From Candidatus Rifleibacteriota bacterium (GTDB lineage: Bacteria; Muiribacteriota; Ozemobacteria; Ozemobacterales; Ozemobacteraceae), in NCBI GenBank assembly GCA_028689875.1, contig JAQVCG010000009.1, positions 1-42,757 on the forward strand: DNA of 42,757 bases. The letters run 5' to 3'. The notes beneath the pieces were generated by a model. It did no database searches and was not told the origin of the DNA. It saw only the letters and a list, made by a program, of their open reading frames with translations. A program made the position numbers and the translations under genes. Position 1 is the first letter of the stretch, and each line of letters starts with the position of its first letter. Shown piece after piece: positions 7,198-38,400 of the stretch.

Positions 7198-7293
7198 TTC
7201 GCGCTCCTCCTTTTATGATATTTTAGACCGCTTATAATAACTCTTAAAGCCAAAAAATGCCACAAATTTCGCACTTAATCTTTTGAAAGGATA

Positions 7294-7302
7294 TGGTATA
7301 AT
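7294..7302 (+). promoter_or_regulatory. Extended -10 promoter for the exported protein at 7326
   Basis: TGGTATAAT is a perfect -10 hexamer with the extended TGN element, 23 bases before the ATG; the Shine-Dalgarno GGAGG lies between them. No good -35 hexamer is visible at the usual distance, which fits an extended -10 promoter. Confidence 0.6.
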
Positions 7303-7325
7303 CTTTATATCGGAGGTTAGAGGTT

Positions 7326-8666
7326 ATGAAAAAAATTATTGTTTTATCTGCAATGCTTTTATTTGTAAGCGTAGTATCAGCATTTGCAGCAATGCCCGCT
7401 ACAATCAAAGAAAGCGGCACCTGGGATGCGCTTAACTCTTTCCAGGTAATACAGGCAACAATAAATAAGCAGAACGAAAAGGTTTGTCTGCCGACGATCG
7501 AATTTACCTCTAAGGTCGATATGGAACAGCTTCAGCTTGAGTTGAAAAATGGAATTCAAAAACAAGAAGCTATTTTTAATCTTTATCACGACGGTATCGG
7601 GCGCCCTAAAAAGCAGGGCGGAATGCTGTACGCTTCAGACGTTTATTTAAAAGACCTTAAAATGACATATACAGGTTTTTTGAGCAAACTCGGCTATAAA
7701 TTTTCGGTTTCAAATAAACCTGCCTACGAAGACCCCGATGCTCTTAAAAACATTATATATTCGCGCGGAATAGACGAAAGCAAACGCGAATCAGACAAAA
7801 AGCAAAGAGAAAAAGATAAAGAAAAGGCAAGAAAACAAAGAAAAGAAAAACCGCCTACCAGAAGAATCGAAACGATTTATGATGTGCTGCCGCCGGGGGT
7901 GATTCCGCCGGCTACTCGTAAAGAAATTGCAGAAATAAATCGCAGAATCGAAAATATGAAAAACAGGCCCTATGAAACCAAAGATGTCGAAATAGACCCT
8001 GTTAGATGGGCGAGCGGAGTTTGCGGGCTTTTGAAGGAAGACGGCAATATAACCGGGGCAAAAATAGAAGGGCGAAAGCCGCAGATTAAAATTAGGGTCC
8101 CTAACAAAAAAGGTTGGCTTACGCCCGCTATGATAAAAGAACTTGACGGAGCAAGATGCGAATTTATGCTTCAACGAGACCGGAATGGCCATGAGGTAAT
8201 AGAAAATGGTGCATATCTTATTCGCGATCTCTATTTGCACAAACTAAAACTTAGCTGGGAAGAATGGCTTGAAAAGCATGGTTTGAAGTGTCCGGATTTT
8301 GAAAACAAACCGACCTATGCACAACAGCCAATAGTGTTAGACACAGAATATCTGCCCGCAACTTGGATTAAAACCCTTGCCATCGCTGCTTGCGGAGTAA
8401 ACTTTCCTAAAAAGAACGTTCTTGTAAGAGAAAAAGAGATGCTTCGAGTGTTTCCGCCCGAAACTAAGCCGACAAACTTTAAGCATTATGCAAAAGCATT
8501 TGACGAAAAATACGCAAATTGCGCTATTGGTGTGACTTTGCTTATATGCCCCGACAACAAGCCTTATATGGAACTCGGGCAAAAACGTGCCTTAAGAATC
8601 TATTTCTCTGAGGCAGGAACAAACTTAGATTTCTTGCAAAAAGAGCTTATTAAAGAGCAAAAATAA
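7326..8666 (+). CDS. Exported protein with an internal duplication, function unknown
   Basis: 446 residues. A typical signal peptide (MKK, hydrophobic core, cleavage likely after AFA near residue 21) sends it to the periplasm. Two related units are seen: residues about 55-135 and about 250-332. Their ends align as GGMLYASDVYLKDLKMTYT...LGYKF...NKPAY against NGAYLIRDLYLHKLKLSWE...HGLKC...NKPTY. Between them is a very basic, Lys/Arg/Glu-rich stretch (about 150-180) and a Pro-rich turn (DVLPPGVIPP). A third, more divergent C-terminal part follows (about 345-446). I recognise no family. Promoter and GGAGG ribosome-binding site are clear. It is divergent from mgtE and ends at a hairpin shared with tpiA. 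Confidence 0.8.
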   Translation: MKKIIVLSAMLLFVSVVSAFAAMPATIKESGTWDALNSFQVIQATINKQNEKVCLPTIEFTSKVDMEQLQLELKNGIQKQEAIFNLYHDGIGRPKKQGGMLYASDVYLKDLKMTYTGFLSKLGYKFSVSNKPAYEDPDALKNIIYSRGIDESKRESDKKQREKDKEKARKQRKEKPPTRRIETIYDVLPPGVIPPATRKEIAEINRRIENMKNRPYETKDVEIDPVRWASGVCGLLKEDGNITGAKIEGRKPQIKIRVPNKKGWLTPAMIKELDGARCEFMLQRDRNGHEVIENGAYLIRDLYLHKLKLSWEEWLEKHGLKCPDFENKPTYAQQPIVLDTEYLPATWIKTLAIAACGVNFPKKNVLVREKEMLRVFPPETKPTNFKHYAKAFDEKYANCAIGVTLLICPDNKPYMELGQKRALRIYFSEAGTNLDFLQKELIKEQK

Positions 8667-8670
8667 AAAA

Positions 8671-8697
8671 GGGCAGACTTTGATTTAAAGTCTGCCC
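8671..8697. terminator. Bidirectional intrinsic terminator between the exported-protein gene and tpiA
   Basis: Perfect 11-bp stem GGGCAGACTTT / AAAGTCTGCCC with a five-base loop. Reading the minus strand, the stem is followed by TTTTTTATTTTT, an excellent U-tract for ending the tpiA transcript. On the plus strand a weaker CTTATATTTTT tract follows, so it may also end the upstream plus-strand gene. Confidence 0.88.
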
Positions 8698-8714
8698 CTT
8701 ATATTTTTAACTAA

Positions 8715-9467
8715 TTAAAAAACGGTAAGTTTTGCAAAAGAATCTGCTTCTAGACTGGCTCCACCAACGAGTGCGCCGTCGATGCCGTCTTGTTCCATGT
8801 AGGTTTTGATGTTTTCGGGTTTGACCGAGCCTCCGTATAGTATTCTGACTTTTTCAGCTGTGGCTGTTCCGAATCTGCTGTGAATGAACTCGCGAATCAA
8901 TGCAATTGCATCTTTTGCGTCTTTTGCGGTTGCATTTTTTCCGGTTCCGATGGCCCATACGGGTTCGTAAGCGATTACTATGTTGCCTAACAACTGTTCA
9001 GAAACACCTTTGAGGCCGTTTTCAAGCTGATTCAAAATGATTTGGTCGGTTTGATTTTTTTCGCGGTCTTCAAGTCGTTCGCCTACGCAAAGAACAGGAA
9101 TAAGGTCGTGTTCAAAAGCAGAAAGCACTTTTTTGTTAATGAATGTATCGCATTCGCCAAATACCCATCTGCGTTCACTGTGGCCTAATATAACAAACTC
9201 ACAGTTCAGATCTTTGAGCATTGCCGGGGCTACTTCGCCGGTAAAAGCACCTTTTTCTTCAAAGTGCATGTTCTGGGCGCCCAATAAAATATTGGTTCCT
9301 TCACGTGCCTGGTCTACGGTTGAAATTAGCGGAAAAGGCGGGCATATTAAAACATCTACATCGCGCAAATCAGAAATTTTGGGCAAAAGTTCGGCCATGA
9401 AGCTTTTTGCTTCTGCGGTTACTTTGTGCATTTTCCAGTTTGCTGCTATGATTGGTCTTCGTTTCAT
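8715..9467 (-). CDS. tpiA: Triosephosphate isomerase
   Basis: 250 residues, the usual length. Interconverts dihydroxyacetone phosphate and glyceraldehyde 3-phosphate in glycolysis and gluconeogenesis. All catalytic residues are present: Asn10 and Lys12 in AANWKMH, His96 in GHSERR, Glu168 in AYEPVWAIGTGKNAT with the mobile loop 6, and the phosphate-binding YGGSV and GALVGGASL segments. A CAGGAG Shine-Dalgarno precedes the ATG. It is the last gene of a gap-pgk-tpiA run, 18 bases after pgk, and ends at the strong terminator at 8671-8697. Confidence 0.98.
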   Translation of the reverse strand: MKRRPIIAANWKMHKVTAEAKSFMAELLPKISDLRDVDVLICPPFPLISTVDQAREGTNILLGAQNMHFEEKGAFTGEVAPAMLKDLNCEFVILGHSERRWVFGECDTFINKKVLSAFEHDLIPVLCVGERLEDREKNQTDQIILNQLENGLKGVSEQLLGNIVIAYEPVWAIGTGKNATAKDAKDAIALIREFIHSRFGTATAEKVRILYGGSVKPENIKTYMEQDGIDGALVGGASLEADSFAKLTVF

Positions 9468-17209: not shown

Positions 17210-17382
17210 TGTTTGTCTCCTTGTGATTGCATATAAATTATCACAATAGTCAAAAAAAATACACTCTGCGAACCACATTTTCTGTCAGCTGAAATTCGCT
17301 GTCGATATAACCATCATCTTTTGCTTCTAACCTGCGAGTAATCTCTGACTAGCACTAAGGAGATTCTTAGGCTGTTGTATAC
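17210..17382. other. Non-coding stretch upstream of cyuA
   Basis: No gene is supported here. The part next to cyuA is AT-rich and, on the minus strand, contains TTGACT followed by a GATAAT-like sequence with non-standard spacing, so the cyuA promoter is probably here but cannot be fixed. The segment 17327-17602 is open on the minus strand but is explained by the repeat that follows. Confidence 0.4.
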
Positions 17383-17612
17383 GCGGTGAACGGTGAGGCG
17401 GGCGCACAACGCTCATAAAATCGCTCGGTCTCATAACATTCGCTGCGTCTTTCGGCTCGCACGGCCGGAGAACCCCCGTAACGCGCTTCATGCGCGTGAC
17501 GGATGCCTTTTGCCGTCGTGGCAAAAGTTCCGGCCTTAGCGGCCTCCTTCGCAGAATGTTATGGCCCTCGCTCCAATATTTGCTTTTGTGCGCCCTTCTC
17601 ATTGTTCACCGC
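17383..17612 (-). repeat. Structured dispersed repeat, copy A
   Basis: Outer inverted ends GCGGTGAAC (17383-17391) and GTTCACCGC (17604-17612) enclose a 192-base core (17402-17593) that matches copy B at 38082-38273 in reverse complement without any gap, with 19 differences (about 90% identity). In element orientation the core has nested stems: P1 GCGCACAA/TTGTGCGC; P2 CATAACATT/AATGTTATG extended by CTGCG/CGCAG; P3 GGCCGGA/TCCGGCC; and two hairpins, P4 CTTTTGCC/GGCAAAAG and P5 CCGT-ACGCGC/GCGCGT-ACGG. A second GTTCACCGC occurs at 17634-17642. No transposase is near. It may be a structured RNA, or a MITE-like mobile DNA element. The long minus-strand ORF through it is probably fortuitous. Confidence 0.85.
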
Positions 17613-17686
17613 CGCCACAGGTGCCGCCTCAAAGTTCACCGCAGTTGCTACCAACAAAATGCATCTGATCTTTAAGCAAGTAAGGT

Positions 17687-37934: not shown

Positions 37935-37963
37935 CGCTGTTGCTATCAACCCTCTGTTATATT
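37935..37963 (+). repeat. 29-bp imperfect direct repeat flanking copy B, left
   Basis: CGCTGTTGCTATCA then a TATATT end; matches 38290-38318 at 26 of 29 positions. A related 16-mer lies next to copy A (17640-17655). These may be insertion-linked duplications or part of the element family. Confidence 0.6.
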
Positions 37964-38061
37964 ACCAGTCTCGCTGAAAGCCGGCGCTGAATTTCTCGCT
38001 TTCCAAAAAACTTTCTAATAACCTTGCAACTTGCGATAACGGCCTGCTTCGCTGTTTAATC
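37964..38061. other. Non-coding stretch left of repeat copy B
   Basis: No gene is supported. Several short CTCGCTG/CTTTC-type words recur (around 37971-38010) but no clean repeat or promoter was identified. The larger interval 37890-38463 holds only the repeat copy, its flanks and one promoter. Confidence 0.35.
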
Positions 38062-38292
38062 GCGGGGAACGCACGAGTATGGCGCACAAAAGCGAATATT
38101 GGAGCGAGGGCCATAACATTCTGCGAACGAGTCCGCTAAGGCCGGAACTTTTGCCTGGATGGCAAAAGGCCTCCGTCACGTGCCTGAGGCACGTTACGGG
38201 GGGTTTCCGGCCGTGCGAGGCGAGAGACGCGGCAAATGTTATGAGGCCGAGCGATTTTATGAGCGTTGTGTGCCTAACTCGAAGTTCACCGC
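38062..38292 (+). repeat. Structured dispersed repeat, copy B
   Basis: Outer ends GCGGGGAAC (38062-38070) and GTTCACCGC (38284-38292), one mismatch from inverted. The 192-base core (38082-38273) is collinear and gap-free with copy A. Stems P1-P5 are all kept: P5 changes ACGCGC/GCGCGT (A) to ACGTGC/GCACGT (B), a compensatory C:G to T:A change, and its loop-closing A-A mismatch in A becomes C-G; P1 and P2 each change a pair to G-U. The plus-strand ORF at 38079-38348 runs through it, but 14 of the 19 A/B differences alter the encoded residue, so protein-level constraint is not evident. Confidence 0.85.
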
Positions 38293-38318
38293 TGTTGCTA
38301 TCACCTCTCTGCTATATT
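38290..38318 (+). repeat. 29-bp imperfect direct repeat flanking copy B, right
   Basis: Partner of 37935-37963 with three mismatches, overlapping the last three bases of the right GTTCACCGC end. Confidence 0.6.
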
Positions 38319-38400
38319 CATCCACCCGCCGCGATGCCGGTATCATAGTGTTTCTGAAAGCGAATGTAATTCAAGCTCCGGATAAATTTCACATTTTGTG

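Follow-up and report, generated by a model that had tools for sequence, protein, structure and literature searches.

Enterobacterial ERIC (or IRU) repeats are about 127 bp in length. Among the stem-loop repeat families covered by PMC2267715, the ERIC models span 103 to 115 bp, YPAL from Yersinia measures 168 to 169 bp, and Bcr1 from the Bacillus cereus group 147 to 167 bp. Prokaryotic MITEs, exemplified by the Correia elements and reviewed in PMC10969869, are short and non-autonomous, possess terminal inverted repeats, and show presence/absence polymorphism. REPs (20 to 40 bp) and REPINs are palindromic intergenic DNA kept as a hairpin and are associated with TnpA-REP (PMC3116915, PMC8266576).

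The window analyzed here, a stretch of 42,757 nt from a Candidatus Rifleibacteriota bacterium, contains two copies, termed A and B, of an element that resembles each of these systems in part. We consider A and B to be, most probably, genus-specific, dispersed, non-coding, and imperfectly palindromic DNA repeats that are MITE-like or ERIC-like and non-autonomous. The element is best read as a new, previously unlisted family of MITE-like palindromic repeats that lie between genes and form a hairpin of unusual length.

Copy number and taxonomic range

Copy A (17383-17612, forward strand) and copy B (38062-38292, reverse strand) match at 195 of 230 positions without a gap, and BLAST against their own genome aligned them at 87% identity over 231 nt (E = 2e-74). 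An earlier note on this DNA had described the two as collinear over 192 bases with no gap and 19 differences, which ungapped alignment reproduced exactly. Both copies named in that note are real, but the full count is 17 rather than two. BLAST and a covariance model (CM) built from 15 distinct copies retrieved 8 full copies from the source genome (G000; 2.38 Mb, 71% complete, 178 contigs) and 9 from G001 (bacterium ADurb.Bin157), the single genome of the same genus that was compared. These are accompanied by twelve or more copies that are partial or have lost their core. The family is known from these two draft MAGs only, and their contigs break at the repeats.

Covariance model and BLAST searches of 38 other genomes of the phylum retrieved no copies, and a core-pattern scan of 84,980 species genomes gave ADurb.Bin157 as its sole match. 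The element was likewise absent from phage, plasmid, and viral-contig collections. Copies fall into two subfamilies, one comprising the G000 copies and the other most G001 copies, with a common 208-nt core and different outer arms. Tandem pairs also exist, at spacings of 365, 511, and 362 nt. The only G000-type copy in G001 (L013) adjoins a truncated aspS fragment (G001:C57:9426-9889, L040) that is 98% identical to G000, compared with 78 to 89% for the other orthologous stretches compared; this copy and its aspS fragment may represent a recent transfer or a mis-binned contig.

Anatomy of the element

The core, of about 208 to 231 bp, is bounded by inverted repeats and set in a short repeated outer frame. 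It comprises seven helices: a long outer stem with conserved internal loops, followed by two apical hairpins. The left end of the outer frame reads GGTRGCAACK, while its right part consists of degenerate TTCGAGAGTTGG-type repeats, each about 20 nt long, and ends at GCGCCGGCTTTCAGCGG (motif X). Motif X gave 25 matches in the two genomes, mostly adjoining the element, versus 0 for the reversed control. Frames that lack a core, or that retain a short leftover hairpin, are present in both genomes.

Copy A is a full-length hairpin element of 230 nt (CM score, 245.7 bits over 17394-17601). Repeat searches delimited it by terminal inverted repeats of 27 nt each on the forward strand; the left repeat (17383-17409, starting GCGGTGAAC) is 85% complementary to the right repeat (17586-17612, ending GTTCACCGC). 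Apical hairpin 1 (helix 6, alignment columns 81-114; 17473-17505, forward strand) is the most conserved part, and apical hairpin 2 (helix 7, columns 116-137; 17507-17527, forward strand) contains three pairs with double changes. Repeat and end searches also located an extra left-end fragment (CCGCCTCAAAGTTCACCGCAGTTGCTACCAA) after A, at 17624-17654 on the reverse strand. This inverted fragment shows that the core of A is inverted relative to its outer frame; the inverted core and duplicated left end across 17383-17654 possibly arose through inversion through the arms.

Copy B is likewise a full-length hairpin element, of 231 nt (CM score, 227.7 bits over 38074-38281). An end search placed its left outer frame (..GATAGCAACAGCGGTGAAC) at 38284-38318 on the reverse strand. 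This frame is repeated without a hairpin at 37935-37963 (reverse strand) as a direct repeat 90% identical to 38290-38318. A motif search identified motif X (GCGCCGGCTTTCAGCGA) at 37971-37987 on the reverse strand, where it serves as the outer mark on the right side of B's composite element.

Several related repeats were observed elsewhere in the two genomes. Tandem repeats marked by GCGCCGGCTTTCAGCGG occur at G001:C47:17357-18019 (L041:14358-15020) and G000:C4:14756-15414 (L034). Units lacking the hairpin are spaced 94 to 96 nt apart in G001 and 131 nt apart in G000, and those containing it 362 to 380 nt apart; in these arrays, the hairpin seems to be placed inside the units of a larger repeat. 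Iteron-like, degenerate direct repeats of about 20 to 21 nt (TTCGAGAGTTGGAAGTTA) lie beside core-less frames at G001:C23:3873-4360 (L102). A small module, TGGTTTATTGTCAAACCATGTGTCG, with a short hairpin of its own, lies near several copies (L035:4340-4400, L043, and L042).

An antisense ORF crosses each copy (91 aa, 17327-17602, reverse strand, for A; 89 aa, 38079-38348, forward strand, for B), and most copies keep one antisense frame open, as might be expected of a small protein gene. Variable sites are even over the three codon positions (16/14/15 and 33/26/33), however, and thus carry no signal of protein-level purifying selection. The frame is also shifted in copies L018 and L021, no start codon common to the copies was seen, and neither ORF of A or B has a Pfam match. 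Given the flat codon-position variation, the frameshifts, and the lack of a Pfam match, we ruled out the ORF as a gene and regard a protein-coding explanation as scarcely credible; the frame is open by composition. The earlier view that this is not a protein gene was therefore well founded.

Gains, losses, and genomic setting

G001 has an empty site in place of A, with about 28 nt instead of about 400 nt between flanks that are 84% and 88% identical. The DNA replaced (approximately 17281-17680) includes A and its outer frame; the flanks align with nothing between them, and the borders are uncertain by 10 to 20 nt. Conversely, a copy beside the UDP-glucose dehydrogenase gene (copy E) is present in G001 and absent in G000. 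At the site of B, G001 retains a 39- to 45-nt stub of one arm only. The recQ site holds a full copy in G001, while in G000 it holds a core-deleted remnant of the G001 copy's subfamily, cut between two GCTTTTG repeats (G000:C143:4390-4420, L035; versus G001:C11, L043) and followed by two full copies of G000's own subfamily. These two full copies are newer than the remnant.

Neighboring genes are unrelated and encode EPSP synthase/serine dehydratase, DnaB, SMC, RecQ, MurJ, and UDPG dehydrogenase, among others. No copy lies inside a plausible gene; copies occupy long intergenic regions, many of them divergent, in both orientations, and convergent and tandem gene settings also occur. A repeat that is mobile, or that at minimum inserts recurrently, behaves in this way, and the deletions are of the kind that palindromes typically undergo. 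The instability of palindromes is well established and presumably acts on the cores of this element as well, in that replication slippage across the palindrome would steadily delete them. For an uncultured lineage, the family also provides a record of gains, core deletions, and duplications in tandem.

The confinement of all copies to intergenic regions, many divergent, would also suit a DNA site under host selection that additionally spreads through recombination. Examples would be a repeat that structures the chromosome, or a cruciform or protein-binding site located upstream of a divergent gene pair. Such a site could further account for the TTCGC motif repeated through both arms and for conserved internal mismatches, for example, the C.A mismatch at columns 83/112, which is kept in 13 of 15 copies. 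Yet the orthologous genes of the sister genome lack the element, convergent and tandem positions are also occupied, and core deletions are tolerated. We therefore judge host selection quite improbable as the main explanation, although the conserved unpaired positions and internal mismatches may leave room for a host function.

Fold and covariation

Both copies fold with high stability (z = -8.9 for A and -5.8 for B), with 0 of 200 shuffles as good in either case. Standard pairs make up 99.2% of pair cells in the alignment of the 15 distinct copies, and when the structure was slid along this alignment, paired cells fell to 35 to 45%. Double changes occur in 23 of 64 pairs, a degree of covariation reached by 0 of 500 shuffles. 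Invariant columns of the core make up 51% of unpaired and 62% of paired positions. This common fold and the strong covariation over 15 copies uphold the earlier proposal that nested hairpin pairing is kept with compensatory changes. Neither of the outcomes that the earlier note had named as a refutation, a lack of covariation across many copies or purifying selection in the ORF, was observed. The apical C:G to T:A change in that proposal is also real, corresponding to columns 92/103 within apical hairpin 1. In contrast, the changes to G-U that had been assigned to stems P1 and P2 call for a correction: read along A's strand, the differences between A and B at columns 11/201 and 52/163 are A.C mismatches, and they become G-U only on the other strand.

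DNA-level or RNA-level constraint

Covariation is usually taken as proof of a functional RNA. Strong covariation, conserved loops and internal loops, and a very stable RNA fold would all be in keeping with a multicopy family of structured non-coding RNA genes whose helices are selected in the transcript. A transcript on either strand should favor G-U over A-C on that strand. In the element, the 388 variable-pair cells include 374 Watson-Crick, 6 G-U, and 4 A-C cells; G-U is thus no more common than A-C, neither strand is favored, and the G-U-admitting covariation expected of a structured RNA gene was not found. For RNase P RNA of this bacterial family, compared at a mean identity equal to that of the element copies, the counts were 262 Watson-Crick, 38 G-U, and 3 A-C cells among 304 (Fisher p = 4e-9 for the G-U share, element versus RNase P RNA). 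ERIC fell between the two, with 15 G-U and 3 A-C among 231 variable-pair cells, in a rough comparison based on 11 copies chosen by their conserved centre. Expressed as the wobble share of variable-pair cells, these values are 1.5% for the element, 12.5% for RNase P RNA, and 6.5% for ERIC.

Individual pair cells do not count as independent observations, but counting by pair or by event leads to the same picture. Variable pairs that ever show G-U number 2 of 26 in the element and 19 of 49 in RNase P RNA. Mapping on a tree gave 30 double Watson-Crick to Watson-Crick events, against 5 events to or from G-U and 6 to or from A-C; 11 of the 30 are transversional and so could not have passed through G-U. 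Nearly pure Watson-Crick changes, together with similar numbers of G-U and A-C, indicate that complementarity is kept at the DNA level with no RNA strand favored. Thus, the arms are kept complementary as DNA and not in the manner of a structured RNA.

Other observations also weigh against RNA genes. Copies are gained and lost, their cores are deleted, and they adjoin unrelated genes in both orientations; Rfam gave no match to the element at the gathering score or even at E = 1; and no conserved promoter or terminator was established. Taken together, these results render a family of RNA genes improbable. Of the two possibilities raised in the earlier note, a structured RNA or a mobile DNA hairpin, the second is favored and the first disfavored on the strength of site presence/absence, remnants, unrelated neighbors, terminal inverted repeats, and strand-neutral covariation confined to Watson-Crick pairs. 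Strong covariation with scarcely any wobble and without strand preference points instead to a constraint on, or repair of, a DNA palindrome. Comparing the numbers of G-U and A-C could offer an easy way to tell other structured-RNA candidates apart from DNA hairpin repeats.

A compensatory change can gain both of its sides simultaneously when replication switches template (PMC8794818), and single-step copying of one arm into the other may account for some double changes in the element. Copies L018 and L021 carry a CC to TT tract of two bases that mends the standing C.A mismatch plus the neighboring position, and it looks like a template-switch event. This tract, together with double changes that lack intermediates (11 of 30 transversional), could be taken to mean that the arms are kept alike by template switching only, as PMC8794818 proposes for RNA hairpins, with no structural selection. 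Pure correction should, however, erase the internal loops and mismatches, which persist in almost every copy from either genome, and it leaves dispersal unexplained; arm copying as the sole process is therefore very unlikely. Because the C.A mismatch and internal loops are kept in the other 13 copies, in both genomes, and unpaired columns are almost as often invariant as paired ones, we infer that selection on folded or paired DNA is favored, with arm copying as an additional source of mutations.

Possible mobilization

If the element is a mobile DNA hairpin, new copies would arise through mobilization in trans by a putative nuclease or transposase, whose target would be DNA in the form of the hairpin or of the paired arms. 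Such an enzyme would most likely act on the ends of the element or on its folded strand. The full-length hairpin would then persist because only full-length copies multiply. It is conceivable, if somewhat doubtful, that the substrate is the element's own folded single DNA strand, with the 230-nt hairpin, including its mismatches, recognized by the putative in-trans enzyme. If so, the strict, strand-neutral Watson-Crick covariation records selection on folded DNA and not on RNA.

Among the flanking genes scanned, no transposase or nuclease was consistently adjacent to the element. End searches in the two genomes (G000 being 71% complete) gave fragments only, and an autonomous copy sharing these ends was not found. 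The empty site showed no clear target-site duplication; its borders have diverged, and the flanks are 84 to 88% identical. Two end fragments 3.6 kb apart on G001:C44 were considered as an autonomous element, but the ORF between them is surface protein-like rather than a transposase, and this reading was rejected. Paralogous AAA-ATPase_like/PDDEXK_9 genes (G001:C44:1979-3529 and 7270-8820, L048) and a PDDEXK_2 "putative transposase" gene (G001:C183:1560-2489, L047) lie directly beside an end fragment or copy. As mobilizers, the AAA-ATPase_like/PDDEXK_9 genes next to L022 and L023 (two loci only) and the PDDEXK_2 gene next to L021 (one locus only) were set aside as unsupported, and an IS66 transposase beside L017 as a single case. 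Readings as integron attC sites or CRISPR-like repeats were also rejected: cassette ORFs are lacking, and the scan of flanking genes showed neither an integrase nor cas genes.

Comparison with known repeat systems

As with REPs and REPINs, the element is palindromic intergenic DNA kept as a hairpin, and by analogy with these systems its mobilization in trans is plausible. It is far longer than a REP, however, and no TnpA-REP gene was found beside any copy, nor a Y1 transposase gene among the flanking genes of the copies. The element shares with MITEs its terminal inverted repeats, its presence or absence at orthologous sites, its small size, and its non-autonomous character. It differs from them in that its whole interior, and not just its ends, is palindromic and conserved. 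Neither a target-site duplication nor a parent transposon was found, the flanks being diverged and the MAG 71% complete.

YPAL and Bcr1 resemble the element in size class, low copy number (tens), taxonomic restriction, and intergenic location, although they belong to unrelated taxa and the element is absent from its phylum outside its genus. ERIC/IRU repeats are, like the element, intergenic, non-coding, and dispersed, with a long imperfect stem-loop, covariation between the arms, and a MITE-like character. In contrast to ERIC, the element is about 230 bp long, has two apical hairpins and a repeated outer frame, and contains fewer wobbles (1.5% versus 6.5% of variable-pair cells, from a small ERIC sample). 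The ERIC centre matches enterobacterial plasmids only, and the element matches no plasmid. The features of a stem-loop repeat family are all found here: dispersed copies (8 + 9), a common stable stem-loop, and an intergenic location. Thus, the element is a new family of the stem-loop kind described in PMC2267715, with a greater length and less wobble than the ERIC copies tested.
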